37,857 bases of DNA. Origin: a virus. The stretch is taken from positions 1-37,857 of IMG/VR virus record IMGVR_UViG_3300032092_005293. One strand, 5' to 3'. The notes below the pieces were generated by a model. That model ran no database searches. It saw only the letters and a list, made by a program, of their open reading frames with translations, and had not been told where the DNA came from. Below are positions 913-30,423 of the stretch, piece by piece (position 1 is the stretch's first letter; each line of letters opens with the position of its first letter). A program made the translations under genes and the position numbers.

Positions 913-3600
<2,688 letters not shown>

Positions 3601-4051: not shown

Positions 4052-4118
4052 TGAACACCCCTCAGGAAAACAGTAAAAGGGTCGTCACCTCGCCACTCGC
4101 CAAAACCCAAAAGGGTCA
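4052..4118. other. Prophage left end with two putative transposase-binding sites
   Basis: On the minus strand the outer site (4084 to 4064) reads CGACCCTTTTACTGTTTTCC and the inner site (4118 to 4109) reads TGACCCTTTT. Their starts are 34 bp apart. The outer site matches the right-end outer site at 19 of 21 positions. The inner site contains the TGA stop codon of the methyltransferase gene (4118-4116). The terminus itself is probably TGAACA at 4052, preceded by host-like TTTCC. The role as transposase site is inferred from inverted symmetry and position. Confidence 0.8.
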
Positions 4119-5522: not shown

Positions 5523-5525
5523 GGC

Positions 5526-7343: not shown

Positions 7344-7355
7344 CGAGGTGAGAGA

Positions 7356-8272
7356 TTAGGAATTGCCAGCCATCACGCGGGCCGCGGCCGCAGAGGCATA
7401 TTCCTCCGCGTAGGTCGGACCTTTGATTTCCATGTCCTGAGCTTCCCAGATCGCAGGCATCTGGCGCATCGCGATGCTGAGGGGAAACCGGTGCATGGCG
7501 TCAAAATGGTTCAGCCGCCACTGAGTCACGATCACCTGATAGATGGTCGAGATCCAGCCGGCATGGCTCAGGCGGCGGCTTCCTCCACCTTCGCTGGATC
7601 CAAAGGGCTGGCACCCTCGCTTTCCGCAGCGCGTTCTGGAAACATCTGCCGCATCTGCTCACCGGCATGGCGCATCAGCCGCGGCACATCCGCGGCCCCT
7701 ACGCGGCCCCCTACATCCCGCAGCAGTTTGGAGAGCGTCCCGGGATCGCTGATCTGAGGGCAGAAGTCATCGTTGAACTTCACACAGCCCGCAGCGTCCT
7801 CAGGGCAGACGACAGCCAGCGCGAGGAACAGCAGATCCGCCGGCGTCGGATTCCCGCCGGTCACAAAGGGGCTGCCCACTGCTTCGAGGAACACATACCC
7901 GCTGAGGCTCAGCGGCCGCATCACCAGCCCGCAGGGCAGCGTCTGTTCACCGGGCTGCATCAGGGCGTTGAGATTGGCCGGGCTGGCACCGGCGGCTTCC
8001 GCTCTGGCCCGCGCGGCATCGTAGGCGTCCTGACTGTCCAGCCACTTCTCCTGCTCAGATCTGGCAGCCGGCTGGGGGGAATTCAGGGTATGGGCCACAA
8101 TCGCGGCCGCGACAGCCGGCGGCGGGACGCGATGCACGGCGCAGATTATCTGCTGCATCGCCGGAGTCACCAGGAGGCGGCCGGCTTTGAATTCGTCGAG
8201 CTGCTCGGCGGTGAGTTGCTGGGCAGCAGCAATCAGCACGGCTGTTTCATCGGTGAGGGCGGGAGTAGTCAT
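7356..8272 (-). CDS. Tail assembly chaperone GT fusion made by -1 frameshifting
   Basis: Slippage at 7607-7601 would move ribosomes from the 234-residue frame into the -1 frame. That frame stays open for 81 further codons to TAA at 7358-7356 (ending AAARVMAGNS), giving about 305 residues. The extension contains HAGWISTIYQVIVTQWRLNHFDAMHRFPLSIAMRQMP. This copies the lambda G/GT layout: two overlapping frames directly before the tape measure, with the longer form made by -1 slippage. The GT form would bind the tape measure while G recruits tube subunits. Position, frame and slippery site all agree; the efficiency is unknown. Confidence 0.8.
7568..8272 (-). CDS. Tail assembly chaperone, short (G-like) form
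   Basis: The unshifted product is 234 residues and ends VEEAAA with TGA at 7570-7568. It is Ala-rich, mostly alpha-helical in appearance, and has no signal peptide. Near the C-terminus are SDPGTLSKLLRDVGGRVGAADVPRLMRHAGEQMRQMF. I recognise no named family from sequence alone. The role follows from its place before the tape measure and from the frameshift site near its end. It is longer than the lambda G protein (about 140 residues). Confidence 0.75.
   Translation of the reverse strand: MTTPALTDETAVLIAAAQQLTAEQLDEFKAGRLLVTPAMQQIICAVHRVPPPAVAAAIVAHTLNSPQPAARSEQEKWLDSQDAYDAARARAEAAGASPANLNALMQPGEQTLPCGLVMRPLSLSGYVFLEAVGSPFVTGGNPTPADLLFLALAVVCPEDAAGCVKFNDDFCPQISDPGTLSKLLRDVGGRVGAADVPRLMRHAGEQMRQMFPERAAESEGASPLDPAKVEEAAA
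7601..7607 (-). promoter_or_regulatory. Slippery heptamer CCCTTTG for -1 frameshifting
   Basis: Read on the minus strand the site is CCCTTTG in the frame AGC CCT TTG GAT, matching the X XXY YYZ rule exactly (XXX=CCC, YYY=TTT, Z=G). It sits ten codons before the zero-frame stop. The -1 frame downstream is open for 81 codons. No clear pseudoknot was identified by eye downstream, although the following sequence is GC-rich. Confidence 0.78.
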
Positions 8273-8293
8273 AGAGTAAGAAGTTGAGTTGAA

Positions 8294-8875
8294 TTAAGAA
8301 AACAGGCTGATGATGTCCTGAGGGACTTCGAGGTCATCCACCTCGCGCGGCACTGCGTTGGGCATGTCGGCGTAGTGACGCGCGGGCACATCCACCAGGC
8401 GGATGCCATTCTTGCTCCATCGCTCAGTCACTCCGGACCAGACGGTGAAGGTGAGACTCTCGCCACGCACGGCGAACTGGAACTGCTCGCCCTTCTCCGG
8501 CATCTTCCGGTCTGAGGGCATCCGGATCGCCAGTTGCAGCCGGTAAACAGTGGTGGCCACACCGGCCGCATAGATCTTAGCGTGCCCATCCGCTTTCTCG
8601 AACTCCGCGCCGCTGTCCGCGAGTTGCGCCTCCTCGATCACGCCCCACTCATCCGGCATCAGCCCATAGGTGCCCCGCTTATACCTCGCCTTGTCTCCGG
8701 CCGTATGAGTCAGCCCGGTGATGACACGGCTGGGCATGGCATCCTGCACGCTCAGGCGGGTCGCTGTCACCATGATCGCCGCGGCACACGTCCAGGCGGC
8801 GGCCACGGTAAAAGGCGGCGGCGGCACAGCAGCGGCCGGGATGTCAGTCAGCGCTGTCCAGTCGGCGGTAGGCAT
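8294..8875 (-). CDS. Phage tail-region protein, unknown function
   Basis: A 193-residue protein between the putative tube genes and the chaperones. No family is recognised. The N-terminus is hydrophobic and Ala/Pro-rich (PAAAVPPPPFTVAAAWTCAAAIM) but without a charged signal-peptide start. The rest is mixed alpha/beta with VYRLQLAIRMPS and LTFTVWSGVTERW. The position suggests a tail or head-tail joining component. It is separated by 6 nt from the upstream 271-residue gene, so the two are probably co-translated from one mRNA. Confidence 0.7.
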   Translation of the reverse strand: MPTADWTALTDIPAAAVPPPPFTVAAAWTCAAAIMVTATRLSVQDAMPSRVITGLTHTAGDKARYKRGTYGLMPDEWGVIEEAQLADSGAEFEKADGHAKIYAAGVATTVYRLQLAIRMPSDRKMPEKGEQFQFAVRGESLTFTVWSGVTERWSKNGIRLVDVPARHYADMPNAVPREVDDLEVPQDIISLFS

Positions 8876-8881
8876 GAGACC

Positions 8882-9697
8882 TTAGGCGGCGTTGAGGGTG
8901 AAATGGATCGCCCCGGCGGCGATGGTCGCCGTATTGCCCGCGGCAATAGTGGCCCCGCCTCCAATGGTGCTGGTCTTCAGCAGGAAGGCTGTCCCCCCGG
9001 CAATGCGCAGCGTCGTGTATTCCCATGTCCAGCCGCCGGAGGGCGCTGCCGCACTCACGATGGCGTTGGCATTCTCCATCTCCGCGGGCGGGCCGGGAGT
9101 GTAAGTCCACTCGGTATTGTCCCTCGCCACGGCGATGGAGGTGAACGGAGAGCCGTGCGCCACATGCAGTGGATCGTGATCCCACAGTTCCACCACGAAT
9201 CCCGAGGCGCTCCGGATCTCATTGGTCCCGCCATAGGCATGAACGATAATGACCGCTGCTGCCTTCACATGGGGCACCGCGCCGCTGCCGCTATCGCCCT
9301 GAGGCCAGCTCAGGATAGAGCCCAGCGCTGCGGCCGGCATGTTCACGAAATAACCCTCAGGCACTGTCAGGGTGCCACCGGCCATGGCCGACTTGCACAC
9401 CGGCACCTCACTGCCCGCATCGCCAGCCAACACGCGCACATGCGTTGCGCTCCAGCCGCCACTGCCGGCAGGCCCCAGGCTGATCACGGCAGGATTGTCC
9501 CCGCGGGCACTGTAGTTGTCACTCAGCACTGTCACCAGCCATGGGAGCGAGATCCGTTCCTCCACCAGCAAATCCCCGGCGGCGTCCGGATCGCCATCCC
9601 ACACCTGCACAGTCAATGCGTCGGAGGCCGGGAGGTTGGTCTCCTTGTAGAAGACATCCTTCAGGAGACCACCGGCAGCAGCAGGATAGACAGGCAT
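8882..9697 (-). CDS. Tail-region protein with internal duplication
   Basis: A 271-residue protein, rich in Gly, Ala, Val and Thr and without charged helices, so probably beta-rich and structural. The two halves look alike. LTVQVWDGDPDAAGDLLVEERI in the first half matches FVVELWDHDPLHVAHGSPFTSI in the second. GGWSATHVRVLAGDAG in the first half matches GGWTWEYTTLRIAGGT in the second. This points to a duplicated domain of about 130 residues. It could be a tail tube accessory, decoration or Ig-like protein. I recognise no family. Confidence 0.7.
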   Translation of the reverse strand: MPVYPAAAGGLLKDVFYKETNLPASDALTVQVWDGDPDAAGDLLVEERISLPWLVTVLSDNYSARGDNPAVISLGPAGSGGWSATHVRVLAGDAGSEVPVCKSAMAGGTLTVPEGYFVNMPAAALGSILSWPQGDSGSGAVPHVKAAAVIIVHAYGGTNEIRSASGFVVELWDHDPLHVAHGSPFTSIAVARDNTEWTYTPGPPAEMENANAIVSAAAPSGGWTWEYTTLRIAGGTAFLLKTSTIGGGATIAAGNTATIAAGAIHFTLNAA

Positions 9698-9735
9698 GGC
9701 TCAGCTCTGATTGGGGTATGGGCTCAGGCCGCGGC

Positions 9736-10326
9736 TCAGGCTCCAGGATCGGTCTCGCCCTCGACAGGCACCGCGTCACCAAAACCGCCAGTCGGGAAGG
9801 CGCTCGTGCTCTGCGCCGCAGAGCTGTCATCCGGGCGCAGGCGGACAGTCACCAGCGATTCACGCAGCATGCTCGCATGGATCTTACCGCTGAAGGAAAT
9901 CTTCCGGATCTGCCCCATGGCCCACTTCACCTGTGGCTCTCCGTCCACCACAAAACGCAGCGCCGCATTCTCGGCACTGCCCTCCGGCATTTTCAGGAAA
10001 AAGACCTCGCCGATGCGGGGCATCGCATCGCCGCGGCGGAAGCGGGCGGTCAGTTGCACCTTCCAGCCCAGCTTCCAAAAGTCATACGCTTCCACGCCGT
10101 GCGCCCCATCATCCAGCTCTTCATTTCCTCCGGCCATTTCACTGAAGGAGCAGTCCTCAATCCGGCCCACTGTCGGGAAGCCGGTCTCGGTTTGGCCCAG
10201 TTCGATGGTTCCGCGGATATAGCGCGCCGCGAGGTCATCACCGGAGCCGGTCCAGTGGGTTGTGCTGTTTGGTGCCACCAGCGTCCGGCTGTTGGCGATA
10301 TTGTCAGAGGCATTGGTATTGGGCAT
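9736..10326 (-). CDS. Candidate major tail tube protein
   Basis: A 196-residue protein between the putative tail terminator and the tape-measure block, where siphophages place the major tail protein. It has no signal peptide and is mixed beta in appearance (KLGWKVQLTARFRRGD, ALRFVVDGEPQVKWAMGQIRKISFSGKI). The C-terminal 35 residues are low-complexity and acidic. The length fits a tube subunit. The assignment rests on position; a sequence family was not recognised. Confidence 0.65.
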   Translation of the reverse strand: MPNTNASDNIANSRTLVAPNSTTHWTGSGDDLAARYIRGTIELGQTETGFPTVGRIEDCSFSEMAGGNEELDDGAHGVEAYDFWKLGWKVQLTARFRRGDAMPRIGEVFFLKMPEGSAENAALRFVVDGEPQVKWAMGQIRKISFSGKIHASMLRESLVTVRLRPDDSSAAQSTSAFPTGGFGDAVPVEGETDPGA

Positions 10327-10357
10327 GGCTCAGAAGGAGTGGAGGTTGGAAAGGAGA

Positions 10358-10876
10358 TCAGGCCGGGACTTCCAGCGGATGCCCGGCAGGCAGGTCGAGA
10401 GAGATGACGCACTGGAACGTCAGTTCCCGGCTGCGCAGGCCGCGCCGGGCGTCGGGGCTGTAGCGGCGGTCGCTGAGGAAGCGGAAGCCAAACTCATTGT
10501 CGAAATCGGTGCGGGCGGTGAAAAGCACCCGCTGGATCAACAGCCGCACCCAGGTGCTCAGCCGCAGCAGCGAGACATTCTCCACCGGTGCCGTCGATCC
10601 TGTGATCTCACCGGCCGCCCGTTTGATCTGAAAATCCTTAGGAGTTTGAACGATGGCCCGGATGCTGACCCGGGCGATGCCGGATTCCTGATCGACTTCC
10701 GCCGCCGCCATGGCCACATCGCCCGCCAGCAGGCAGAGACGGGCCTTCTCCGGCCCCAGAGCCAGCAGCTCCAGCGCATCGTCTTCATCCTCGTGTGGAC
10801 TGAGGATCACATTCATCTGCGCCAGCGGCGCTGTCAGCACCGTCACCAGACCGTTGATGATGTCTTCCGGAGTCAT
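10358..10876 (-). CDS. Putative tail terminator / gp37-like neck protein
   Basis: A 172-residue protein whose start overlaps the end of the gp36-like gene by 4 nt, matching the Mu-like order gpT, gp36-like, gp37-like. It begins MTPEDIINGLVTVLTAPLAQMNVIL, has an acidic stretch (EDEDDALELLALGPEKARL), and ends with LRSRELTFQCVISLDLPAG. These features suit a small tail-completion protein that sits between connector and tube. The call depends largely on gene order. Confidence 0.65.
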   Translation of the reverse strand: MTPEDIINGLVTVLTAPLAQMNVILSPHEDEDDALELLALGPEKARLCLLAGDVAMAAAEVDQESGIARVSIRAIVQTPKDFQIKRAAGEITGSTAPVENVSLLRLSTWVRLLIQRVLFTARTDFDNEFGFRFLSDRRYSPDARRGLRSRELTFQCVISLDLPAGHPLEVPA

Positions 10877-11292
10877 GGCTGGCGGCTGAATTTGGCAGGC
10901 TCGGAGATCACTCTCACGCCGCGTTTGGGCGGCGGGCTGGGTGTCGAGGGCGCGAGATCGCGCTTCTGACCGATGCTCCGCAGGTTCTTCAGGTGTTCCG
11001 CAGCTTCCTCCCAGAGGGCTTCATCATAGACCCGCCGGCGTTCAAAGACTGTTTTCCTGGCCAGCACGCGCGCGGCTGCCCGCACGGCAAAGAGCACCGG
11101 ATCATTGTCCGGATAGGGCGGCACATACTTGGGGGCCAGTGCCCCATGGATGGCGTCATTCACCGCGCTCATGATCTCCGCCCACACCTCTTCAGCAGTC
11201 ATCCCGCTGCTGGCACCATCGTCCAGAGCCTGTTGCAGGAATCCGGCCGGCAGTGAGTTCGCGAGCTGAGTTTGCGTGATGTAGTCGGCCAT
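10873..11292 (-). CDS. Mu gp36-like head-tail connector protein (DUF1320-type)
   Basis: A 139-residue protein starting MADYITQTQLANSLPAGFLQQALDD, followed by EEVWAEIMSAVNDAIHGALAPKYVPPYP and a helical block (AVRAAARVLARKTVFERRR). This N-terminal pattern is the one seen in Mu gp36-like proteins, which lie directly after the capsid gene and join head to tail. It overlaps the next gene by 4 nt. The C-terminal Pro/Ser-rich tail is probably disordered. Confidence 0.8.
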   Translation of the reverse strand: MADYITQTQLANSLPAGFLQQALDDGASSGMTAEEVWAEIMSAVNDAIHGALAPKYVPPYPDNDPVLFAVRAAARVLARKTVFERRRVYDEALWEEAAEHLKNLRSIGQKRDLAPSTPSPPPKRGVRVISEPAKFSRQP

Positions 11293-11391: not shown

Positions 11392-12291
11392 TCAGGCATC
11401 CGCGCCGGTGGATCCCCACGCGAGCTGAGGAACGCCGAAGTCCACGCGGTGAATGCCGTAGGACTTGTACTCGAAGGCCTCTTTCTTGAAGACGTTGTCG
11501 CTCTGCGGATCAGTGCGCGCCGTGAAGGTCACAGGCTCTTCATCCACATAGACCAGAGGCTGCATCTCCAGACCGTTATTCAGGAGGAACCACTGGCTGC
11601 CAGTGATCAGCGGCGTCACGATCAGCTTGGCGCGCTGGTAGTATTTGTTCTTCCCGCCGGTGCTGAGGGTGTCCACCATCACGATGTCCTCAGCGGCGCT
11701 GCGGTTGTCTTCACCCACGATCAGCGTGAGATCCATGAACGGACTGAACGGCGTGCCGTCCGGTGCCAGAATCTTGCCCAGACCGGCGATAGCCTGGCCG
11801 AAGTATGTCGGATTCAGCACCTTCGTGCTCTTGTTGGTGAACTTGTTTTTGCCCACGCCCGGCGCGTGTTCTTTGGCCGTGTCGAAGAAGTTCTTTCCGG
11901 TGTAGTCCTTCCGGGTGAATCCGTTCACCAGCATATCCATGGCCAGCATGTCCGGATGGATCGCGGCATTCAACCCGTTCTGGGCGAACATCGTGGCATA
12001 TTGTCCGAACTGATCGTTCTTGATGTCACGGCGGGGGATGCTCCAGCCGATGCCGAACGGATCAGGCGTCACCTCCCACTTCACAGAAGCGAGGTTGGCG
12101 TATTCCAGCTCTTTGCCGAAGGGCTTCAGGCCAGGTGTAGCCCCCAGCCAGCCAAACACTGCCTTGCCTCCAGCTGCACCGGATTTAGCCGCGATGCGGC
12201 CGATGTGCGGAGTGTAGCGCCCCCGGCCGCGATTCCACACCGTGACAGCAGTGCGGTTCAGTTGATTGATGTTGGTTGGATTGATGTCCAT
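11392..12291 (-). CDS. Mu gpT-like major capsid protein
   Basis: A 299-residue protein with the hallmarks of Mu-type major head subunits. These are FGWLGATPGLKPFG near residue 47, IPRRDIKNDQFGQYATMFAQNG (about 85-106), HPDMLAMDMLVNGF and a conserved C-terminal region (SQWFLLNN, PLVYVDEEPV, FKKEAFEYKSYGIHRV). It lies between the decoration protein and the connector genes, as in Mu. About 50 nt separate it from the upstream decoration gene and about 100 nt from the downstream one; these gaps hold no further gene that I can see. Confidence 0.93.
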   Translation of the reverse strand: MDINPTNINQLNRTAVTVWNRGRGRYTPHIGRIAAKSGAAGGKAVFGWLGATPGLKPFGKELEYANLASVKWEVTPDPFGIGWSIPRRDIKNDQFGQYATMFAQNGLNAAIHPDMLAMDMLVNGFTRKDYTGKNFFDTAKEHAPGVGKNKFTNKSTKVLNPTYFGQAIAGLGKILAPDGTPFSPFMDLTLIVGEDNRSAAEDIVMVDTLSTGGKNKYYQRAKLIVTPLITGSQWFLLNNGLEMQPLVYVDEEPVTFTARTDPQSDNVFKKEAFEYKSYGIHRVDFGVPQLAWGSTGADA

Positions 12292-12344: not shown

Positions 12345-12782
12345 TTAGGGGAACTCGATCCACACGCCCGCGGCATCGCCATGCACGGTATCGGCCGCCA
12401 CGATCTCAGTGAGGATGCCACCGGCCTCAGTGCCAGTGTCGGAAGCATTCGCCGCCGTGTTGTCATCACTCCATTCGACGGCGGCGAGCAGGCCGCAGAG
12501 GTGCGCTGCCGTCAGGGCATTCGTGGCGTCATTGTTGAAGAAGAACTCGCCGCGCATCACGTTCACCTTGAGGTCACCGGCGCTGCCGCCGGAATTATCC
12601 TTGGTTTCCGCGAAGACGCCGATGGCCTTGCTGTAGGTGGAGGACACCGGCCCTACCACTCCGGCAGAGCTGATGCCGGCCACGCCACCGGCAAAGCACT
12701 TGCCGGCATAGAGGCTCAGGTTGTTGAAGAACTTGATTTCGCCGCGGCAGCGGGTGTCACGGGGAGCTGTGAGATTAGGCAT
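12345..12782 (-). CDS. Capsid decoration protein (Mu gp35/DUF2190-like)
   Basis: A 145-residue, Gly/Ala/Thr-rich protein between the protease/scaffold and the capsid. It has beta-type segments (AGKCFAGGVAGISSAGVVG, DLKVNVMRGEFFFNND) and ends ADTVHGDAAGVWIEFP. Small proteins of this composition at this place decorate the capsid surface. The family link is by composition and gene order; sequence support is moderate. Confidence 0.72.
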   Translation of the reverse strand: MPNLTAPRDTRCRGEIKFFNNLSLYAGKCFAGGVAGISSAGVVGPVSSTYSKAIGVFAETKDNSGGSAGDLKVNVMRGEFFFNNDATNALTAAHLCGLLAAVEWSDDNTAANASDTGTEAGGILTEIVAADTVHGDAAGVWIEFP

Positions 12783-12830: not shown

Positions 12831-13946
12831 TTATTGGCCGGAGGCGTATTTCTCGACTTCCTCCTGAGTGACGCCCATCATGTCATTGATGCGCTGTTCA
12901 TCGGCGCTCAGCTGGCGCTTCACCTCGACGACCTTGTCGCCCTGCGCAGGCCGGGCACCGCCAGCCTTGAGCGGCACAGTCGGCTGGAGATTGCGGTAGA
13001 TGGCCTCCAGCGCGCTCAGGGCGATGGCGGTTTCCCCGTTGCGGCCGTAGATCTGGTCATCGGTCAGCGGGATCACCTTGCCCTCAGCTGAGCAGAGCCG
13101 CACGATTTCATCCTTGCGGGCCTTCTCCGCCGCCGCGGTCTGGGCATTCACAGAGCCCTCCAGGGCTTTCAAACGGCGGTCGAGCGCGCTGAGCATTTCC
13201 GGCGATTCCTCGCGTTCGGAGGGCTTTTCTTCTTTGCCCGCATACTCCGCAGCAGCGGCGGTCAGGGCGGCTTCGTATTCGGTGTCAGTCATTTCGCCCT
13301 TATCAGGAACGGTGACACCGGCTTTCTTCAGCATGGAGAGGAGCACTTGGATCATGGCTTCGTAGGATACAGATTTGAGGTAGGTGTTAGGTGGTGGTGG
13401 AGAGGCATCGGCAGAGCACAGCGTGGGCAGTTCCAGTTCGCCATCCGGGCACAGGCCCACGGAATCCAGCTCCACCATCAGGCTGTCCTTCTTGCGGGCG
13501 AGGAATGCCGGGGATGGATCAGGCAGAGCTTTCCAGATCTTGAGCGCACGGTCCGTCCAGGTGGCGTTGCAGAGATAGAGACCATCCCCGGGCACGGCTT
13601 CCAGATCGGCATAGCCGAGAATGTCTTCAGGATTCATGTCCGCTGCGGACTTGAAAGCAGTCTTGTGCGCCACGTCGATGCGCACCCGGTCATGCCGCCT
13701 GGCAGCCATCCGCCGGCGGATCTCCGTCACACCGTCTTCACGGGTCAGCACCGCGCCGCCGCGGAACTCTTCACGGCCCCAGTTGGCAATCTTGAACCGG
13801 TCCGGAGGGCCATCGCCCGTCCGCGATTCCTTCGCGGCAATCCCGCGAAGCATAAACCGCTCCTCAGCCTCTCCGCTCCCGACTGGGGAACGGCTGGCAT
13901 TGCAAAGGTAGCGGATTTCGGCGGGATTCATGACGCCGCCGATCAT
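12831..13946 (-). CDS. Mu gpI-like prohead protease with scaffold domain
   Basis: A 371-residue protein with two parts. The first (about 1-200) has the gpI-like protease pattern (RFKIANWGREEFRGGAVLTREDG, RVRIDVAHKT, DILGYADLEAVPGDGLYLCNATWTDRA). The second (about 205-371) is charged and helical (EMLSALDRRLKALEGSVNAQTAAAEKARKDE), as expected for an internal scaffold. In Mu the scaffold is also made separately from an internal start; the Met at SYEAMIQVLLSMLKKAG could serve here. Starts at 13946 or 13931 are both possible. It is preceded by the inverted terminator repeat instead of by gpG, which is its usual neighbour. Confidence 0.85.
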   Translation of the reverse strand: MIGGVMNPAEIRYLCNASRSPVGSGEAEERFMLRGIAAKESRTGDGPPDRFKIANWGREEFRGGAVLTREDGVTEIRRRMAARRHDRVRIDVAHKTAFKSAADMNPEDILGYADLEAVPGDGLYLCNATWTDRALKIWKALPDPSPAFLARKKDSLMVELDSVGLCPDGELELPTLCSADASPPPPNTYLKSVSYEAMIQVLLSMLKKAGVTVPDKGEMTDTEYEAALTAAAAEYAGKEEKPSEREESPEMLSALDRRLKALEGSVNAQTAAAEKARKDEIVRLCSAEGKVIPLTDDQIYGRNGETAIALSALEAIYRNLQPTVPLKAGGARPAQGDKVVEVKRQLSADEQRINDMMGVTQEEVEKYASGQ

Positions 13947-13976: not shown

Positions 13977-14005
13977 TGGTGCCCGTGGGCACCCTTTTCA
14001 GTTTT
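13977..14005 (+). terminator. Intrinsic terminator in a 29-bp inverted repeat (left copy)
   Basis: Read on the plus strand, a perfect hairpin GGTGCCC-GT-GGGCACC (13978-13993) is followed by CTTTTCAGTTTTT, a typical intrinsic terminator. Its direction is opposite to the leftward genes around it, so it would stop antisense transcription coming from the left. The whole 29 bp is repeated exactly, inverted, at 29971-29999. The minus-strand half also supplies the TGA stop (14000-13998) of the 62-residue gene. Confidence 0.75.
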
Positions 14006-14186
14006 TATCCTCTGCGGCCGCCTCCCGCCCGGCCTCCATCCGCAGCCGATCCCCCAGACACACAATGCAAAACCATTCCTGCTCAGGCCTCAGCACCGGC
14101 GTGGACCAGGTCTTGTACTTCGGGCAGCGCTTCCGCACCGGCTTGGCGTTCCCGGTGTCGATGGTCGAGCGGGATTTAAGACTCAT
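13998..14186 (-). CDS. Small Cys-containing phage protein
   Basis: A 62-residue basic protein, MSLKSRSTIDTGNAKPVRKR at the start, with three cysteines (RCPKYKTW and WFCIVCLGD) that could form a small metal site. Its ATG overlaps the stop of the lipoprotein gene (ATGA), supporting coupled translation. Its last codon AAC and TGA stop lie in the 29-bp inverted repeat, in the same frame and position as the end of gpG. No family recognised. Confidence 0.6.
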   Translation of the reverse strand: MSLKSRSTIDTGNAKPVRKRCPKYKTWSTPVLRPEQEWFCIVCLGDRLRMEAGREAAAEDKN

Positions 14187-14488
14187 GGCTCTTCCAAATG
14201 GATGTAAGGCTCTCCAAAGTGTGCCTCCGCATGTTCAATGCGGTGCGTCAACTTTTCCACCGCCGCCCGCAGTTCTGCTGTTTTGCCTGAGCCATTCGGC
14301 GAGACCAATTCGTCTGCGGCGACCGCGCCTTGCGCAGCAGCTCTTTGCAGTTTCAGTTCTTTAATAAAACGCGCATCATACACGGGCATCTGTGGCGCTC
14401 GTTCTGTTGCGCTGTGCTGCTCGCTTGATGCTGTCGGTTTATCGCAGGCCGCCAGCGCACACATCAAAATGAGAACGGGGCTTTTCAT
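14183..14488 (-). CDS. Small lipoprotein
   Basis: A 101-residue predicted lipoprotein starting MKSPVLILMCALAAC with a lipobox LAAC and the modified Cys at residue 15. The rest is helical and hydrophilic (ELRAAVEKLTHRIEHAEAHFG). The open frame extends upstream, but the ATG at 14488 overlaps the stop of the GYF gene (ATGA) and gives a clean lipoprotein signal. It could be an Rz1-like spanin or a surface-exclusion protein. It lies in a cluster with two other membrane or secreted proteins, next to the repressor, which suits lysogenic expression. Confidence 0.7.
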   Translation of the reverse strand: MKSPVLILMCALAACDKPTASSEQHSATERAPQMPVYDARFIKELKLQRAAAQGAVAADELVSPNGSGKTAELRAAVEKLTHRIEHAEAHFGEPYIHLEEP

Positions 14489-14916
14489 TTCCGGGACGTC
14501 AGCTTGAGACCCACGATGAACCAGACCACACCCAGCGCGATCAGTGGCAGCGCGTAAGCCACTGAGCCTGCGAGCAGCAGATTGGCCCCCCAGAGGATTC
14601 CACCCGCCGCCCATAGAAAGCAGAGCACGCCAAACACGATCTTCCATACTGGCGTTGGCTCCCGAATCAGTGCCGGATGCACCGCGCCGCCACTCAGGCT
14701 GGCGTAGGCTGAGTAGGATGGAGCCGGGGCCGGCTTCGGCGGCATCACATCGTCCCAGTAATCATCCAGCGTCAACCAGTCGGCATCGCCTTCCTGACAC
14801 ATCGGAGATCCTCCAACAATTTCACCGGCCTCGAAAAGCCTCCTCACAGCACCGGCAGGAAGCGGCCCCCGGGGTTGCTCCTCACCGTCGATCTGGACAA
14901 AGTAGCGGACGCTCAT
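14485..14916 (-). CDS. GYF_2-domain membrane protein
   Basis: A 143-residue protein with an N-terminal GYF-2 type domain (about 1-55: RYFVQIDGEEQPRGPLP and SPMCQEGDADWLTLDDYW), a Pro/Ala linker, and two membrane segments (about 91-110 and 112-137). Such domains are common in bacterial membrane proteins, including those of Verrucomicrobiota and Planctomycetota, and are thought to bind peptides. It is probably anchored in the inner membrane with the GYF domain in the cytoplasm. It is unusual as a phage gene; a lysogenic-conversion role is inference. Confidence 0.78.
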   Translation of the reverse strand: MSVRYFVQIDGEEQPRGPLPAGAVRRLFEAGEIVGGSPMCQEGDADWLTLDDYWDDVMPPKPAPAPSYSAYASLSGGAVHPALIREPTPVWKIVFGVLCFLWAAGGILWGANLLLAGSVAYALPLIALGVVWFIVGLKLTSRK

Positions 14917-14922
14917 GACGGT

Positions 14923-15708
14923 TTACCATTGAAATTTCGGGGGCGTTCCGAGCCCGCCTTCATGCAGTGTCCGTCCGACTACCCACAGTTGCGGGAATGG
15001 CCACTGGTTTTCTGCCTCCACTCTTACCCAAAAGAGCATCGTGCCCTTTGTGCCCCGCAGCAGAGTCCGCATTTTGGCCACCCCTTCCACGGGGAATCCA
15101 ATGAACTCCCAGTTGCTGTCTTTCTTGAAGACACTGCCAGCAAACATGCGGCAGCTGTCGGCGTCGATGGCTTCAATCTGACTGGCACTGTTCACGATGA
15201 CTTCCACCCGGATGATTTTTCCATTCAGCTCGTGCATCCGCTGTTGTACTTCAGCGATGCCAAAGGTCTTGCCTTTCACCGCGAGTTTCGGATCAGGCGG
15301 TATGTTTTCCCAGCCCTCCGGATCAGGCTGCCCACCACCGGCGGGCTTCGCTTCCGCGGCTTTATCAGGAGCAGCTGCAGCCGGTTCACCCGCTGGCTTT
15401 CCGGCGGGCTTCTCAACCGGCTTCATGGCCTCGGCCGCTTTCGCATCTGCTGCCTTGGCATCAGCGGCTTTCTTCTCCCGGAAAGCCTTGGCTTTCGCTG
15501 GATCAAACTGATACTTGGCCGCCAGATCCGGAGGCAGCTTCTCCATCGGGATCTTTGTAATGCCGTCGGAGTGCTCTATTTTAAGCCCGTCTGGCTCCAC
15601 TTTTAGCACGCTCCACTTTTTATATGTGGCATCGCCTATAGTGAGATCATCGGCCATCAGCAGCGGCGCGCTCAGGCCACAAAGCAGAATGAATGCAGGT
15701 AGTTTCAT
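14923..15708 (-). CDS. Secreted protein with a verrucomicrobial-type KIP domain
   Basis: A 261-residue predicted exported protein. The signal peptide MKLPAFILLCGLSAPLLMA is followed by DDLTIGDATYKKW, then KVEPDGLKIEHSDGITKIP and EKLPPDLAAKYQFDPAKA. This small domain recurs in many secreted proteins of Verrucomicrobiota. A Lys/Ala/Pro-rich linker (about 85-140) leads to a C-terminal domain (FIGFPVEGVAKMRTLLRG). The open frame extends to 15744, but the ATG at 15708 gives the signal peptide. It looks host-derived and sits between repressor and capsid genes, as a typical accessory gene would. Confidence 0.75.
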   Translation of the reverse strand: MKLPAFILLCGLSAPLLMADDLTIGDATYKKWSVLKVEPDGLKIEHSDGITKIPMEKLPPDLAAKYQFDPAKAKAFREKKAADAKAADAKAAEAMKPVEKPAGKPAGEPAAAAPDKAAEAKPAGGGQPDPEGWENIPPDPKLAVKGKTFGIAEVQQRMHELNGKIIRVEVIVNSASQIEAIDADSCRMFAGSVFKKDSNWEFIGFPVEGVAKMRTLLRGTKGTMLFWVRVEAENQWPFPQLWVVGRTLHEGGLGTPPKFQW

Positions 15709-15709
15709 G

Positions 15710-16105
15710 CTAGAGTTGGGTTTTGGGTTTCCAGTCGGGATCAATTTCGCAGGCGATCTTCACCAGCTCGCGGGCCAGGCGCAGCGGGAGATCCGCATCC
15801 GCCTTTTGAGGCGGGGCGCTCTCGCCGGCCATGCGATCGAGAATGCACTCCAGCCAGGAGCCGCGCACGGGCTTGCCGCTGCTGGCCACGATGCTCAGGG
15901 CCTTGTCTATCACATCCTGACGGCTGTCACTCCACCGGTCCCATGCCGCGGTAATCGTGTGATGTGTCCGCGCCAGTACTGCATACCGCAGCGTGCCGCG
16001 GCCCGCCCCGGCTAACTTGGCATAGCCCCAGTCTTCAAACGAGGCCTCTACGGCACTCTTCAGATCATGGGAAAGCCTCAGGCTTGTCGTCGTCGTGCCG
16101 GCCAT
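15710..16105 (-). CDS. Small protein with possible ribbon-helix-helix N-terminus
   Basis: A 131-residue protein, first gene of the leftward block. The N-terminus MAGTTTTSLRLSHDLKSAVEASFEDWGY resembles a ribbon-helix-helix segment (one strand, then helix), so DNA binding is possible. The middle is helical (RYAVLARTHHTITAAWDRW) and the C-terminus is basic. The stop codon precedes the next ATG by 1 nt. An activator or regulator of the leftward operon is one option; I am not sure of the fold. Confidence 0.68.
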   Translation of the reverse strand: MAGTTTTSLRLSHDLKSAVEASFEDWGYAKLAGAGRGTLRYAVLARTHHTITAAWDRWSDSRQDVIDKALSIVASSGKPVRGSWLECILDRMAGESAPPQKADADLPLRLARELVKIACEIDPDWKPKTQL

Positions 16106-16218: not shown

Positions 16219-16659
16219 TCATTTTAACACGCCGCGACTCCTTAGCGCAACTTCCAATGCGCGGCGCACATCCGGTAGCGTAGCGCCCTTGCCTGTATCG
16301 TCCATGCGCGAAGCGGCATCGTGGAACAATAGCGCAGCCAACCCTGTGATTTCTGCATCACTGGCCGGCCGCAGTTGAGGCGGAGGACTTAAATCCGCAT
16401 CATCCTGCTGAACATCCGTTCGCTCCTGATCAGCATCTTGCAGCCCGTAGATATGCCGGTTCTTACTGAAGCCAGAGGAGTTTTCCAACTGAGCCAGTGA
16501 GTTCCAAAACCTCTCTGTAGGGGGTAATTTCCCGGTTTCGATAGAATACAGCTGTGTGCGGCTATAGCCCAGCCGCTGAGCCAAATCCTCCTTCTTTTTG
16601 ATGCCAAGATGCATCATGAGCCCGCGAAGGCGGATGGGCAAATGTTCTATCGTGTTCAT
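16219..16659 (-). CDS. Immunity repressor, XRE-type HTH
   Basis: A 146-residue protein with a helix-turn-helix of the XRE/HTH_3 type at about residues 22-45 (KKEDLAQRLGYSRTQLYSIETGKLPP). The rest is acidic and then helical (PASDAEITGLAALLFHDAASRM), probably an oligomerisation domain. It faces away from the Cro/Ner-like gene with the operator palindrome between them, the classical layout of a phage switch. It should hold the prophage silent by blocking the rightward early promoter. Confidence 0.82.
   Translation of the reverse strand: MNTIEHLPIRLRGLMMHLGIKKKEDLAQRLGYSRTQLYSIETGKLPPTERFWNSLAQLENSSGFSKNRHIYGLQDADQERTDVQQDDADLSPPPQLRPASDAEITGLAALLFHDAASRMDDTGKGATLPDVRRALEVALRSRGVLK
16408..16423. 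promoter_or_regulatory. Near-copy of the operator inside the repressor gene
   Basis: CTGAACATCCGTTCGC differs from the operator CTGAACATTCGTTCAG (16696-16711) at three positions. It is about 290 bp away, inside the repressor coding sequence. It may be a secondary repressor site for looping or autoregulation, or a chance match. Confidence 0.3.
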
Positions 16660-16666
16660 TTTTTAC

Positions 16667-16711
16667 TTGCCAAAAGTTCGGAATCACCCTAATTGCTGAA
16701 CATTCGTTCAG
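16667..16711 (+). promoter_or_regulatory. Early rightward promoter and operator palindrome
   Basis: The 54-bp divergent region holds a perfect inverted repeat CTGAAC-ATTC-GTTCAG (16696-16711), ending 2 bp before the ATG at 16714. Upstream are TTGCCA (16667-16672) and, after 17 bp, TAATTG (16690-16695), a fair -35 and a weak -10. The palindrome would then cover the transcription start, so a bound repressor would block initiation. The start codon is so near that the mRNA leader would be very short. Confidence 0.6.
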
Positions 16712-16713
16712 TT

Positions 16714-16923
16714 ATGACCACCGTAGCCCACTCCAGTCAACGCGTCAAGATCCAGCGTGAGTTTAAGGCCAAAGTATTGGCCGCGCTGGTTACTCGCGGC
16801 TGGCGGCAGGTGGACTTGGCACGGGCGATCCGAAAAGGCCGCACGGCTGTGAGCCAGTGCATCAATGCCGGGAAGTTCCCCCGCGTCAGAGAAGCCATCG
16901 AATCCCAACTCAACCTGAACTGA
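16714..16923 (+). CDS. Cro/Ner-like HTH regulator
   Basis: A 69-residue protein with a helix-turn-helix at about residues 31-52 (RQVDLARAIRKGRTAVSQCINAG), the first gene of the rightward early operon. Size, orientation and place across the operator from the repressor fit a Ner or Cro protein that shuts down repressor or early transcription. The open frame reaches a TTG at 16693, but that lies upstream of the operator; the ATG at 16714 just after the operator is preferred. Confidence 0.78.
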   Translation: MTTVAHSSQRVKIQREFKAKVLAALVTRGWRQVDLARAIRKGRTAVSQCINAGKFPRVREAIESQLNLN

Positions 16924-17510: not shown

Positions 17511-18035
17511 ATGAAAGAAGCCAAATCCCAAGCCACAGTTGAGACTTACCATGCCTACGTATGGCAAACCGGCCTGATTGAAATCGGCCGGCGCTGTCCG
17601 GAGGGCGCGATATGCATCGCTTCCGGGGGGCGCGCTGCTCTGCGCAGCGCCATCAACAGGCGAGCACGCCTGAGTTATAAAGGCAAACCGCTTGTGCCCG
17701 GGATACCTGAGGCAGCCACACCACAGGGCGCGATAGAAGCGCTGCGCGATTTCTCTACCCAGATCAAAGGCATCCTGGCAGGCAAAACAGCCTTCCGCGT
17801 GCTGACACCGGGATTCAATCGTCTGCAAACCGCCATGTCGGCACCGGCGGGACATCGTCCTCGCTCCATTCGATCTGTAACCCGCGCTGCTGAAAGTGCA
17901 TTGCGAGAGCAAAACGATCGCCCTCGCACATGGAAGGCCAATTCATCAGACCGAGATCATTCAGGTTCTGAATGTTCGGCGAGTCGGAGCGCCTCTCCAC
18001 ATAGGCCGCAGCGGACTGCCAAACAGAAGGCATAA
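17511..18035 (+). CDS. Early protein, unknown, with doubtful C-terminus
   Basis: The open frame gives 174 residues. The first 105 look protein-like (TYHAYVWQTGLIEIGRRCPEG, AICIASGGRAALRSAINRRA, GAIEALRDFSTQIKGILAG). The last 65 are Arg/Ser-rich and overlap the minus-strand gene at 17815-18303, so the C-terminus may be read-through of sequence belonging to that gene. A CA-rich leader without Shine-Dalgarno (17484-17510) precedes the ATG. No family recognised. Confidence 0.5.
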   Translation: MKEAKSQATVETYHAYVWQTGLIEIGRRCPEGAICIASGGRAALRSAINRRARLSYKGKPLVPGIPEAATPQGAIEALRDFSTQIKGILAGKTAFRVLTPGFNRLQTAMSAPAGHRPRSIRSVTRAAESALREQNDRPRTWKANSSDRDHSGSECSASRSASPHRPQRTAKQKA

Positions 18036-20076: not shown

Positions 20077-22026
20077 GTGCCCAGTTCCGACTACGCCACC
20101 CGCCTGTTTATCGCCCGCCAGCTGCGCGACCTCACCGCCAATGGAGCCAGTCTGCGCGCTGCCTGTGCGCGACTGAATGTCGCTCTGGCCACGGGCAAGC
20201 TGTGGCTCGACAAGCTGGCCTCCGGCGCAGATCTCGCGGATGCCCGGCGGGAACGCAGCGGACGCAAGCCGGTATGCCCGCTGACAGAGCGCGAGGCCGC
20301 GGCGCTGCGCAGCCTGGTGATGGAAAGGCGCATGACAGAGGACAGCGCCATCCGGGCCTTCATCAAGCATCCGGCGTGCCGGCCTGAGACCCGGGAGTTT
20401 ATCACCCGCCGCCTCCACGCCAGCCACAGCGCGCCGCGGCACACGGCAAAGAAGGAGCGCTGGCCTGATTCCCTGCGCCGCGCCATGCACGTGACGGCCG
20501 GCGACAAGGCGCGCTACTATGGCAAGGATGCCACCCGCAAGGCTAACATCCATGCCGTGCGCAACATGGACATCGTCATGCCGGATGGCCGCACCGTCCA
20601 GCTGCGCCCGCACATGATGTGGCAGTTTGACGACTACTCGACCAATAAGCCCTACTATCTGGAATATGCGGAAGGCCAGTTCCGCTGCTGCCGTCAGGTG
20701 CTGGCAGCCTACGATACATTCACCGGAGGCTGGCTCTGTTTCCTGCACGTCGGGAAGGAGCGCGATCAATATACCGGCGGGGACTGTCTCCGCGTGGCTC
20801 ATCTGGCGATGGAAAGCCACGGCACCAAGCCGCAGCTGATTATCTTTGAGAAAGGCCGCTGGGCATCGGATGCCGTTCAGGGGCTCGCCATCCCCGGCAC
20901 CAGCCGCCGCTGGGGAGCGCTCAGCGAATGCGGTGTCATCGTCCACCATGCCGCCGACTCCAATGGCAAGGCTGAGATCGAAGGGGCCTTCCGCACGCTT
21001 CAGACTGAACTGGCCGGCGGGGCCGACATCGGCCACACCCGCGGCCTGCACGAGCTGGAGAGCGACAACTACCAGCTGGTGAACAAAGGCCGGCGCGATC
21101 CACGGCACTGCGGATTCCTCTCGCTGTCGGACAGCGAGGAGGAACACTACCGCGCCGCCGCGCTGCTCAACTCCCGCCGCCGGGAGCGCCGCTGCCTTGG
21201 GTATGCCAGTGCAGACGAACTCTTCGCAGAATTCCCCGTAGAGAAGAACCCGCTCAAGCCTGAAGAGCGCTGGCTTTTCCTGCCCCACAAGCAGGAGGCT
21301 ACCGTAGGCAGCATCAGCAGCGGGCTGGTAGGCTGCAAAGTGAACGACCGCCGCTACCTCTTTGTGGTGAATGGCATCGCCCCGGGCGTCCACCTGGACA
21401 ACGGGCACCGCGTCTTCATCGCCTTCGATCCGGAGCGCCCGTGGATGGGATGCGCGGTAGGCAATGCGGACACCAGCACCAAAAACCGTGACGAGCACCG
21501 TCTGGGCGCACTGCTGCTGGGTGGCACCGCGCCGATGGCCCCGGCATGGGATGACATCCCGCGGCTGGATCTCCGCAGCCCGGAGGAAAAGCGGAAAGAG
21601 GACAATCAGCACTGGAAGCTCAGGAAAGGGGCCATCACGGCCGCAGACAGCTCCTTCCGCGCCATCCTGCCCGGCGGGAAACGCGGCCTCCGCGCCGTCT
21701 CCCGCAAGACCCGCTCCGGGGATGTCAGAGATGCCGTAATCGGCAGCGAACATGACGACTCGAATGCCGCCGCGGAACTGACGCAACACTACCGCGGGGA
21801 AGCCCCTGGAATGCCCGGCCATTCATCGCCCTCGCCAGAGTCCGCGGAAATGCCTCCGCGGCCGCCGCGGAATGGCCTTCCGGCGCGCGGGAGCGATTCC
21901 AGCGGCATCCAGAGCCAAAACCGGGCCATGCGGCCAGAGCGCATTTCTGAGGCGGTGCCCTCAGACACCGAACTCGAAGCCCTGGAGGCCGCTGCCATGC
22001 GCGCCGCCGGGCTCGTGATTTCCTGA
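20077..22026 (+). CDS. MuA-like DDE transposase
   Basis: A 649-residue transposase for integration and replicative transposition of the phage. The N-terminal part (about 1-140) has helical DNA-binding regions (SLRAACARLNVALATGKLWLDKLASG). The catalytic domain has WQFDDYSTNKPYYLE (D185/D186), YDTFTGGW (D213), LIIFEKGRWASDA (E258 where MuA-like enzymes usually have the second Asp) and NGKAEIEGAF (E302). A beta-barrel-like region (HLDNGHRVFIAFDPERPWMG) follows. The C-terminal 100 residues are low-complexity and end TELEALEAAAMRAAGL, a place where MuA binds MuB. The start is GTG at 20077, 12 nt after the HTH gene. The Glu at the second position is unusual. Confidence 0.88.
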   Translation: MPSSDYATRLFIARQLRDLTANGASLRAACARLNVALATGKLWLDKLASGADLADARRERSGRKPVCPLTEREAAALRSLVMERRMTEDSAIRAFIKHPACRPETREFITRRLHASHSAPRHTAKKERWPDSLRRAMHVTAGDKARYYGKDATRKANIHAVRNMDIVMPDGRTVQLRPHMMWQFDDYSTNKPYYLEYAEGQFRCCRQVLAAYDTFTGGWLCFLHVGKERDQYTGGDCLRVAHLAMESHGTKPQLIIFEKGRWASDAVQGLAIPGTSRRWGALSECGVIVHHAADSNGKAEIEGAFRTLQTELAGGADIGHTRGLHELESDNYQLVNKGRRDPRHCGFLSLSDSEEEHYRAAALLNSRRRERRCLGYASADELFAEFPVEKNPLKPEERWLFLPHKQEATVGSISSGLVGCKVNDRRYLFVVNGIAPGVHLDNGHRVFIAFDPERPWMGCAVGNADTSTKNRDEHRLGALLLGGTAPMAPAWDDIPRLDLRSPEEKRKEDNQHWKLRKGAITAADSSFRAILPGGKRGLRAVSRKTRSGDVRDAVIGSEHDDSNAAAELTQHYRGEAPGMPGHSSPSPESAEMPPRPPRNGLPARGSDSSGIQSQNRAMRPERISEAVPSDTELEALEAAAMRAAGLVIS

Positions 22027-22058: not shown

Positions 22059-23126
22059 ATGAGCAACAACCCCACTACACCGCCCTCACCGGACGCCACG
22101 GCGATCATGATCCGGAGGCAAACAGAGCAGGCCCTCGCCGGGCTGGCCAATCAAATCGCTGCCTGGTGGCACCGGCAGATGGAGGCGGACTCCAAACTCC
22201 GCAAAGGTGAGCTGCTGCGGCGCTATCCGGCGCTCGGCACCGACAAGACCTTCAACCGCTTTGTGAAAAGCGACTTCAGCGACACGGCCTCCACGCTGGA
22301 TACATGGCTCAGCGATTACCGCACGGTCTGGCAGCAGATCGAAGAGCTGTCCGTAAGGCAGGCCAATACCGGCACCAAAACAACGCTGACGGAATTCTCC
22401 GGCGTGAAGCGTGTCCGCACTGCCGTGGCCGCGCTCACCGGCGAGATCAGCACCCGGCGCATCCTGCTAGTCACTGGCGAGAGCGGCACCGGCAAGAGCT
22501 GCTGTGTCAGCGTCCTCAAGGATCTCTGGGGCGCGCGCGTGGTTTCTGTAGAGGTGATGAACGTCTGGGCCGACAAGCCCAACCGGCTGCTCACCGCCAT
22601 CTGTGAAGCCGTGGACATGAAGACGGAAGGCCTGCCCGCCGGCGCTGCGGACAAGATGCCGCTGCTCATCAAGCATCTGAATGCCACCCGCACCTGTCTG
22701 GTATTGGAGGAAGGCCACCACATGGGGCCGCAGATGCTCAACACGCTCAAGACGCTGGTGAACCAGACGCCCGGCGAATTTGTCATCATCGCCATCCCCA
22801 CGCTGCTGCGCAGGCTTCAGACTGCCGCCTATGAAGAGGCACGCCAGATCTTCGCCTCGCACCGCCTCGCTGAGCGCATCGACCTCAAAGTCACCGCTGG
22901 TGATACGGCACTGCTGCTTACGCACCGCTTTGGCCCATCCAACTCCATCCAGCCCTCTGCCATCTGGCTCACCGATCCGATGCGCGCTCCCAAGCACGGC
23001 AACTTCGGATTCATCCGCGATGTCGCCAACGAAGTCGAGGCGCAGCGCAAACGCGAGGGCACCAGCGGCCCGCTCTGTGCCGATGAAATCACCGCCGCCG
23101 CCGCCGCCGTCATCAACAAACGCTAA
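22059..23126 (+). CDS. MuB-like AAA+ ATPase for target capture
   Basis: A 355-residue ATPase that would bind target DNA, prevent self-integration and activate the transposase. Walker A is VTGESGTGKSCC (G140-S147) and Walker B-like LVLEEGHHMG has E217/E218. FVIIAIPTLLRR probably forms sensor 1 and HRLAERIDL the arginine finger region. Its N-terminal part (about 1-125) is helical (KLRKGELLRRYPALGTDKTF). It follows the transposase by 32 nt, with a CA-rich leader before ATG. The gene pair A-B is the mark of Mu-like transposable phages. Confidence 0.88.
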   Translation: MSNNPTTPPSPDATAIMIRRQTEQALAGLANQIAAWWHRQMEADSKLRKGELLRRYPALGTDKTFNRFVKSDFSDTASTLDTWLSDYRTVWQQIEELSVRQANTGTKTTLTEFSGVKRVRTAVAALTGEISTRRILLVTGESGTGKSCCVSVLKDLWGARVVSVEVMNVWADKPNRLLTAICEAVDMKTEGLPAGAADKMPLLIKHLNATRTCLVLEEGHHMGPQMLNTLKTLVNQTPGEFVIIAIPTLLRRLQTAAYEEARQIFASHRLAERIDLKVTAGDTALLLTHRFGPSNSIQPSAIWLTDPMRAPKHGNFGFIRDVANEVEAQRKREGTSGPLCADEITAAAAAVINKR

Positions 23127-25074: not shown

Positions 25075-25314
25075 ATGAAGGCTGAAGAAGTCATCCGCGG
25101 CCGGAAGGTATTCTGGGCAGGCCTCACCTGGCATAAAGGCCAGCCGACGCCCTATCTCCGCGAGGGCATCATCATCGGCACCCGCTGGAACAAAGTGGAG
25201 GTGCAGTGCCCGGATGGCAGCGTGTTCCTCAAGAAGCGCGAGAAGCTCCACACCGATCTCAAGCAGGCACAGGCCCAACTCCAAAAGCTCACCGCGCAAA
25301 TGCAGCGCCACTAA
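25075..25314 (+). CDS. Small phage protein, unknown
   Basis: A 79-residue protein from ATG 25075, just after the previous TGA. The first part is beta-like (VIRGRKVFWAGLTWHKGQPTP, NKVEVQCPDGSVFLKKREKL) and the C-terminus is a coiled helix (DLKQAQAQLQKLTAQMQ). No family recognised. Confidence 0.62.
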   Translation: MKAEEVIRGRKVFWAGLTWHKGQPTPYLREGIIIGTRWNKVEVQCPDGSVFLKKREKLHTDLKQAQAQLQKLTAQMQRH

Positions 25315-25315
25315 G

Positions 25316-26032
25316 ATGACCTATCAACTGCTTGGATCCTCCATTCCCCGCCAGGCGGCCCCGGCAGCCGCGGCCCCGGCAGCCGCGGCCACGCCGGCAG
25401 CAACTGCCCCGGCACCAGCACTGGCACCGCGGCAGCGCTGGACTCACAAGCCCCTGTCGGCTGATCAGCGCTCTACCATTGGCCGTCTGGGATCGCAGGC
25501 CTACAAAGCAGAGGCAGAGCGCGGCATCGTGACCGTGCCGGCCACGGGCAAGGACGCCGCCGCTCAGCAGTGGCGGCATGAGGAATACTTCAAAGTCACC
25601 GGCCATCATGACCTTGATGCCTGCCATCAGGGCCACTTCCGCGGTCTCTGTGCTCACTTCCGGGCATTGATCGGCACGCCCGCGGCGGCCGCGCGGAGCT
25701 TCCGCGATTCCATGCGCACCGGCCGGGTCAAAAGCAGCGGCGATGCCAATGATACTCACGAGGCCCGCGAGATGTGGCGCAACCTCATCAACCAGGAGTT
25801 GGATGAACTGGGATGGAAGCCCGGCTATGCCTACGTCATCTGCGAACAGAAGTTTAAGTGCAAACTCAACGCCGCCACCGCGGCCACGCTGGAGAAGGTG
25901 TTCTACCAGATCCGCAGCAACGCACAGGCGAAGCGCAAGAAAGGCGAGCTGCCACCACCTGGCACGCCCTCGCCACGCCTCAAGATCATCAAGCCCGGCG
26001 ATCTCGACGAGATGCCGGACATCCCCTTTTAA
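25316..26032 (+). CDS. Middle-region phage protein, unknown
   Basis: A 238-residue protein from ATG 25316, directly after the previous stop. The N-terminal 40 residues are an Ala/Pro linker encoded by a short repeat of gccgcggccccggca type. The body has TIGRLGSQAYKAEAERGIV, HDLDACHQGHFRGLCAHFRALIG, DTHEAREMWRNLINQELDELGW and a basic C-terminus ending DEMPDIPF. It is not a recognisable GemA/gp16 or Mor protein, although the position between B and the head genes is where those lie in Mu. Confidence 0.68.
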   Translation: MTYQLLGSSIPRQAAPAAAAPAAAATPAATAPAPALAPRQRWTHKPLSADQRSTIGRLGSQAYKAEAERGIVTVPATGKDAAAQQWRHEEYFKVTGHHDLDACHQGHFRGLCAHFRALIGTPAAAARSFRDSMRTGRVKSSGDANDTHEAREMWRNLINQELDELGWKPGYAYVICEQKFKCKLNAATAATLEKVFYQIRSNAQAKRKKGELPPPGTPSPRLKIIKPGDLDEMPDIPF

Positions 26033-26044
26033 CCGCCGACTGCT

Positions 26045-26533
26045 ATGCCCGAACACACCCCAAAAAAAGGCACGCTCACCTTTGTCGATGCCATCGACGG
26101 CCAGACCAAAGTCTATGACCACATGGTCGAGATCGCCCCTGGCGTCTGGGCTGGAGCGATCCCGCCTGAAGACATCCCGCCTGTGGGCTTTCACAGCTGG
26201 ATTCCGCTCAACGATGGCTCTGGAGCTTACCGCCCGGTAGTGCGCACGTTCCAGCAGCGGCTTCAGCTCACCAAAGACATCGGCAAATACCTCGGCGTAG
26301 GTCTCCCGGACACTAAAGAGACCCGTGCCGTCTATATGACGATCCGCCGTCTCATCATGAGCGGATTCGTGAAGGCCCGCCAGATCGGGCCGGGCAGCAT
26401 TGAGGTCGATCTGCTCAGCTTTTGGCAGCACTACCAGCGCGCCGGGCAGCCGGGATTCTGGAACAAGGAAAACCGCCGCCGCTATCACCAGCGCACCCGC
26501 GGCACCATCCTGCCCACGGAGGACGATGTATGA
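26045..26533 (+). CDS. Phage protein, unknown
   Basis: A 162-residue protein. The first part is beta-rich (GTLTFVDAIDGQTKVYDHMVEIAPGVW). The later part may be winged-helix-like (TKETRAVYMTIRRLIMSGFVKARQIGPGSIEVDL), suggesting DNA binding, and it ends with a basic tail. It overlaps the next gene by 4 nt (ATGA). No family recognised. Confidence 0.65.
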   Translation: MPEHTPKKGTLTFVDAIDGQTKVYDHMVEIAPGVWAGAIPPEDIPPVGFHSWIPLNDGSGAYRPVVRTFQQRLQLTKDIGKYLGVGLPDTKETRAVYMTIRRLIMSGFVKARQIGPGSIEVDLLSFWQHYQRAGQPGFWNKENRRRYHQRTRGTILPTEDDV

Positions 26534-26937: not shown

Positions 26938-26938
26938 C

Positions 26939-30421: not shown

Positions 30422-30423
30422 CC

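Follow-up and report, generated by a model that had tools for sequence, protein, structure and literature searches.

A Verrucomicrobiota lineage of Mu-like prophages with divergent late arms, both headed by a phage-specific paired element

Introduction

How can a transposable phage make its capsid and its packaging proteins together when the two gene sets lie on divergent arms around a central switch? The question is raised by a 37,857-base IMG/VR record, a single metagenomic contig which was analysed over its whole length and is called the window here. In an initial annotation of this DNA, a repressor and a Cro-like gene were placed at the centre, and it was supposed that a lineage so arranged must have some other means of expressing its two late sets together. 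Here we describe the prophage, its relatives and a repeated element upstream of both late operons.

A complete prophage with an internal switch

The window contains one complete transposable Mu-like prophage of 33.2 kb (about 4052-37252, given a putative 5-bp target duplication, TTTCC, at its ends), which is integrated in Verrucomicrobiaceae DNA. The left host gene and the two phage ends are the following.

742..3600, + strand: host gene for a SWIM/SNF2-type helicase, left host flank (62% identity over residues 48-952, Verrucomicrobiaceae MAG)
4052..4119, + strand: left phage end, with TGAACA at its start, GGAAAACAGT, and AAAGGGTC at 4076 and 4110 (34 bp apart)
37158..37252, - strand: right phage end, with AAAGGGTC at 37160 and 37194 (34 bp apart), GGAAAACAGT and the terminal TACA

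The ends are inverted copies of each other, in which GGAAAACAGT is followed by a pair of AAAGGGTC (4076/4110 and 37194/37160) resembling transposase sites. Inverted ends with repeated transposase sites and a short target duplication, which is putative here, are what characterises a saltovirus (Mu-like transposable phage). A 22-bp host repeat family is also present on both sides of the phage, at 3.73-4.05 kb on the left and at 37.27-37.31 kb on the right. Because the inverted ends match and are flanked by host DNA, the prophage is complete at both ends and its switch is truly internal. A circularly permuted or end-truncated contig is ruled out by the host DNA and the matching inverted ends on both sides, and a two-arm map produced as a contig-end artefact by the host helicase DNA on the left and the host repeat family on both sides. 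The 34-bp spacing also occurs at the portal end of two relatives (G083 and G132), and TACA starts the portal-side ends of the window, G083, G132, G742 and G732.

We divided the prophage into three modules. The hub (E) consists of the repressor, Ner, A, B, the GemA-like gene, o162, F and G, and its features are listed below.

16219..16659, - strand: lysogeny repressor, 146 aa, Cro/C1-type HTH (HTH_31 5.7e-9, HTH_3 7.7e-5)
16693..16923, + strand: Ner/Cro-like protein, 76 aa, divergent from the repressor (weak repressor match, phrog_1468, 0.0064)
17511..18035, + strand: Gam-like host nuclease inhibitor (phrog_1518, 7.9e-20)
20077..22026, + strand: transposase A (position; alignment with relatives, catalytic-type D/D/E by eye)
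22059..23126, + strand: transposition ATPase B, AAA ATPase (phrog_296, DNA transposition protein)
25214..26032, + strand: GemA-like gene (named by position)
26045..26533, + strand: o162, winged-helix-like, in the Mor position, candidate late activator (position, conservation, predicted structure)
26930..28552, + strand: F-like minor head protein with C-terminal HExxH domain (PF04233, 2.4e-18)
29493..29978, + strand: G-like virion morphogenesis protein (PF05069, 7.6e-11)

The HTH repressor (16219-16659, - strand) and the Ner-like gene (16693-16923, + strand) form a switch 37% into the prophage, and the central position given to them in the initial annotation holds. A profile seeded on the 76-aa Ner-like protein found a homologue in the same place, adjoining the repressor, in several relatives. 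An A/B transposition pair near a Ner-like gene and a repressor is also typical of saltoviruses; A is recognised here through alignment with relatives only, since it has no match in the domain and profile libraries. No library match was obtained for the GemA-like gene (25214..26032), and tblastn with A, TerL and B gave no match among 50,697 phage records. The F-like protein is extended at its C-terminus by a long stretch containing an HExxH motif (HELAHW), which relatives have as well. Between F and G lies a 236-aa protein (28786-29496) that looks kinase-like by eye (HipA style motifs) and has no Pfam match.

The capsid and tail module (C), from protease to tail, runs leftward in the window; the other genes of this arm are listed with it.

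4116..4844, - strand: DNA methyltransferase at the distal end of the left arm (PF01555, 6.7e-15)
4848..10876, - strand: tail-region genes o224, tape-measure-like gene (5526-7343), o234, o193, o271, o196 and o172 (position, operon)
10873..11292, - strand: gp36-like head-tail adaptor (PF07030 4.7e-4, below cut-off; homologues in 25 contigs)
11392..12291, - strand: major capsid protein, Mu gpT-like (PF10124, 4.8e-38)
12345..12782, - strand: decoration-like protein (homologues adjoin the MCP in relatives)
12831..13946, - strand: Mu I-like protease, first gene of the left late operon (PF10123, 1.5e-13)
14183..16105, - strand: moron-like genes lying between repressor and late element, among them a GYF_2 protein (2e-5, slightly short of the cut-off) and a secreted-like protein (position)

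The packaging and lysis module (T) comprises o121, lysis, terminase and portal (o121 to portal) and runs rightward.

30056..30681, + strand: o121 and o85, first genes of the packaging/lysis operon (homologues in 22 and 24 contigs)
31241..31936, + strand: CHAP endolysin (library match)
33553..34293, + strand: terminase small subunit (phrog_426 0.0017, weak; position and homologues)
34302..35888, + strand: terminase large subunit (library match; TerL profile)
35885..37195, + strand: Mu-type portal, last gene before the right end (PF06074, 2.6e-42)

It turned out that the gene contents assigned to the arms in the initial annotation were correct for transposition, packaging and lysis on the right and for capsid and tail on the left, where the capsid genes are those for protease, scaffold/decoration and major capsid; the minor-head genes F and G belong to the right arm. 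Mu-type gpT, I, F and portal proteins (4.8e-38, 1.5e-13, 2.4e-18 and 2.6e-42, respectively) again place the prophage among the saltoviruses, and its capsid protein shows a 24-31% match to those of distant Mu-like phages. In the tail region, recognisable homologues in relatives were found for o224 and o172 only. A left arm consisting of foreign DNA or a second phage is ruled out, as relatives pair the same C module with the same hub. The GYF_2-domain and secreted-looking genes at 14183-16105 lie on the repressor strand and are possibly lysogenic conversion genes. TerL is one frame in the window, and in many relatives it is split into two adjacent or slightly overlapping frames for the ATPase and nuclease parts (G083, G189, G470, G420, G746, G752, G755, G757, G760, G761, G763, G768 and G772; for example L103:16956-18592).

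Gene order among relatives

Relatives were found with TerL and F profiles and the capsid protein in Verrucomicrobiales, other genomes of the phylum and IMG/VR; single-protein searches of viral contigs yielded almost nothing, and profiles were required, of which that of B proved too divergent for searching. We mapped the records with profiles built from the window genes and classed them by the arrangement of E, C and T. T on the left with E and C on the right was scored in 26 records, or 25 without the doubtful G764, whose F lies on the opposite arm (G189 and G761, both counted in the 25, are nearly the same phage). In these 25 relatives, the switch is central, and the terminase-portal arm is encoded on the strand opposite to that of the arm with E and capsid genes. 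The window's order, with capsid genes on the repressor side and packaging genes after the early genes (C left, E and T right), is a minority form, which G747 shows in full and L218, G758 and G194 show in part; G132, which had been placed in this class via a spurious B match, was left out. Other arrangements are T and C both on the left (G083), the Mu order on one strand (G751, G756, G759 and G762) and a B3-like order (G039).

The supposition that this lineage puts packaging and capsid genes on divergent arms is thus borne out by 25 relatives, the window and G747, and the comparison does not show relatives in the usual order with the window as a lone rearrangement. It is extremely improbable that the divergent order is a lone rearrangement or an assembly error: the record is indeed a single metagenomic contig, but its order recurs in G747 and partly in L218, G758 and G194, both prophage ends match as inverted repeats, and sequencing reads are longer than the largest repeat at the joints (29 bp).

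The window's order is a derived minority state within the lineage, which arose at least 2-3 times. On the module trees it changes at least two to three times among phages with the common order, so arm swapping is recurrent. The most economical account of the window's order is one inversion of the common order, but the module trees give the window different partners, and AU tests fit either way. Since the window's C and T group with different partners, module exchange was probably also involved (the AU tests leave both fits). For E, the AU test separates the window from G083, which are not sisters (p 0.005). A literature search found no published description of this Verrucomicrobiota lineage, and the lineage, the recurrent swapping of C and T between arms and the phage-specific paired elements described below appear to be new.

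A paired element at both hub joints

The same 29 bp occur upstream of the first gene of each late operon.

13977..14005, - strand: late element copy 1, AAAACTGAAAAGGGTGCCCACGGGCACCA, perfect 29-bp repeat, 30 bp upstream of the protease start
29971..29999, + strand: late element copy 2, identical 29 bp, perfect repeat, 56 bp upstream of o121

A terminator-like match in a scan led to the discovery of this repeat. It is the longest inverted repeat of the window (the next is 16 bp) and is located exactly at both hub joints, and both copies are in sense orientation for the downstream gene. As in the late regulon of Mu, one sequence element heads both the lysis/packaging and the protease operons. 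Relatives have different sequences at the same two places (29 bp in G189, 25 bp in G349 and 20 bp in G470). Sigma-70 promoter and terminator scans of the window gave nothing above shuffles, and no -35/-10 consensus was found; an enrichment of TAnnGT near the late starts is a post hoc observation.

We compared the protease-upstream with the o121-upstream sequence for own and swapped pairs (score cut-off of at least 13), in 15 phages and then in 18 phages fetched afterwards. Own pairs reached the cut-off in 10 of 15 and 10 of 18 phages (20 of 33), against 1 of 210 and 3 of 306 swapped pairs (4 of 516), and none of 20000 permutations in either set reached the observed own-pair sum; the two sets share one phage, since G761 hardly differs from G189. 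No convincing pair was obtained for about 13 of the 33 phages (including G109, G742, G732, G632, G750 and G756), so some use longer or degenerate sites or another scheme. When the same comparison was run on Mu as a control, the lys/I match ranked first (12 vs 8), with the position inexact because Mu's matching stretch lies inside annotated gene I. The Mu lys and I promoters are known to share a 10-bp match, and activator C binds and drives the lys, I, P and mom promoters (PMC4461284).

Could the element be chiefly a recombination site, where a crossover flips the 16-kb hub and interconverts the orders T left/E and C right and C left/E and T right? Both copies lie exactly at the two breakpoints that such an inversion requires, each of the two orders is represented, and among the relatives the swap took place at least 2-3 times. 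However, G083, whose operons are both on the same strand, carries direct copies at -49 and -50 and a third copy before another gene, and G759, with the Mu order on one strand, has both copies as direct repeats, which would yield no inversion. These two phages indicate that the element goes with the operons and is more than an inversion scar. Extra copies are also found upstream of third or fourth genes in G734, G743 and G752, a length of 15-29 bp is short for homologous recombination, and the module trees give the window's C and T different partners (AU tests fit either way). We therefore regard this reading as unlikely.

It is likewise improbable that the element is not a promoter operator but a part of the mRNA leader, where it would serve both late operons as a translational or antitermination signal. 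Its distance of 20-60 bp from the start codons and its sense orientation would suit such a role, as would the hairpin-capable dyads in the window, G749, G754, G759 and G763; yet most phages have no dyad, and the Mu equivalents are promoters bound by C (PMC4461284).

A near-matching dyad, ATTTTCGnnCnGCCGAAAAGC, was also noticed in B3 (L210; ~19834-19855 and 11565-11586), before the protease and upstream of the holin, and is a candidate paired late site.

A candidate late activator

The gene o162 follows the GemA-like gene in most hub-carrying relatives, just as Mor follows GemA in Mu, and it is conserved with the hub (18 contigs of the first set). AlphaFold predicts a helix-helix-hairpin-helix in its C-terminal part, where most pLDDT values exceed 90. 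Neither structural nor Pfam comparison gave a significant relative for o162, no library match names it, and Pfam Mor was over cut-off in 0 of 17 records. It was undetected in G759, which carries the element pair and whose record starts inside A. By analogy with Mu and by its predicted fold, o162 is possibly the late activator and the best candidate for it, the step being a weak one. In the clade of G109, G741, G742 and G732, o162 is a tandem duplication of the DNA-binding-like domain; three of these four (G109, G742 and G732) have no convincing paired late element.

Proposed late control

We think it likely that the prophage is made of three portable blocks, and that the phage's activator fires a phage-specific late control element at the head of C and a second copy at the head of T. 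C and T would each carry their own copy of a late promoter, some 20-60 bp ahead of the first start codon, in a position that corresponds to that of the C-activated PI (protease gene I) and Plys of Mu. An activator encoded in the E operon, for which o162 with its Mor-like position is a possibility, would act on the two copies at the same time, and the divergent arms would therefore still give capsid and packaging proteins simultaneously. Promoter activity, the activator's identity and simultaneous expression of both late sets are the steps that we infer. With an autonomous late promoter making each module portable, arms could be swapped or flipped without breaking regulation. The separate route of late expression called for in the initial annotation would thus be supplied by a phage-specific element heading both operons, in an arrangement that Mu already has (Plys and PI); with a promoter on each late module that answers to a phage-specific activator, divergent arms would not require any new principle.

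A broader version of this proposal seems decidedly unlikely. In it, the twin elements would be co-regulated late promoters and crossover sites as well, the 16-kb hub would be invertible in populations, late modules would be exchangeable between arms and phages, and the activator (o162) would represent a new non-Mor family.

Under the preferred proposal of two co-fired late elements, the rearrangeable gene order of transposable phages would have a concrete reason, namely that each late block brings its matching control site. Since the sites differ between phages and match within a phage, late regulons can be predicted from them, and the pairs offer a handle for seeking a new activator family in phages of a bacterial phylum that has been little studied.

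Comparison with known phages

A central switch with divergent arms is already known from B3 and from Leptospira prophages. The initial annotation had contrasted this prophage with B3 as a phage with its switch near the left end and most of its late genes on one strand; the repressor of B3 lies at 9.9 kb of 38.4 kb, with early genes to the left and late genes to the right, so the switch is internal, the arms diverge and the contrast was wrong. B3 (Pseudomonas, Beetrevirus) and the window both have two divergent arms with the regulators between them, a repressor off the ends, an early arm with HTH, transposase, ATPase and GemA opposite a late arm, and Mu-type head genes. In B3, all late genes are on one arm (lysis, terminase, portal, F, G, protease, capsid and tail), whereas in the window C is alone on the repressor side, T is on the early arm, and F and G are in the E operon. 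The early arm of B3 ends with Mor, while the lineage here has no Mor over cut-off.

Mu has homologous head genes (I, T, F, G, gp36 and portal), late operons with separate promoters (Plys and PI) under one activator, and GemA followed by a small regulator. Unlike the window, it carries the switch at its left end, and almost all of its genes point rightward; the window has no Mor/C, and its transposase and TerL have diverged too far for searches of the phage collection to find a match.

Transposable prophages of Leptospira are described as having two opposite arms split by regulatory genes, no Mor/C and a variable head-gene position, with a TerS-TerL-portal block apart from the other structural genes in group TG1 and TA ends in one group (PMC8705779). 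As far as that description goes, they share with the window the divergent arms, the regulators between them, the lack of Mor/C and the separated packaging block; they differ in their hosts, and a repeated late element is unreported in what is described there. In Burkholderia phage KS10, the head module is reported to be broken up by early genes, and compared with Mu the left region appears to be inverted (PMC2628397). The window resembles KS10, so far as the latter is described, in a head module interrupted by early genes; the two differ in module composition and in the repeated element, which that description of KS10 does not include and which in the window heads both late arms.
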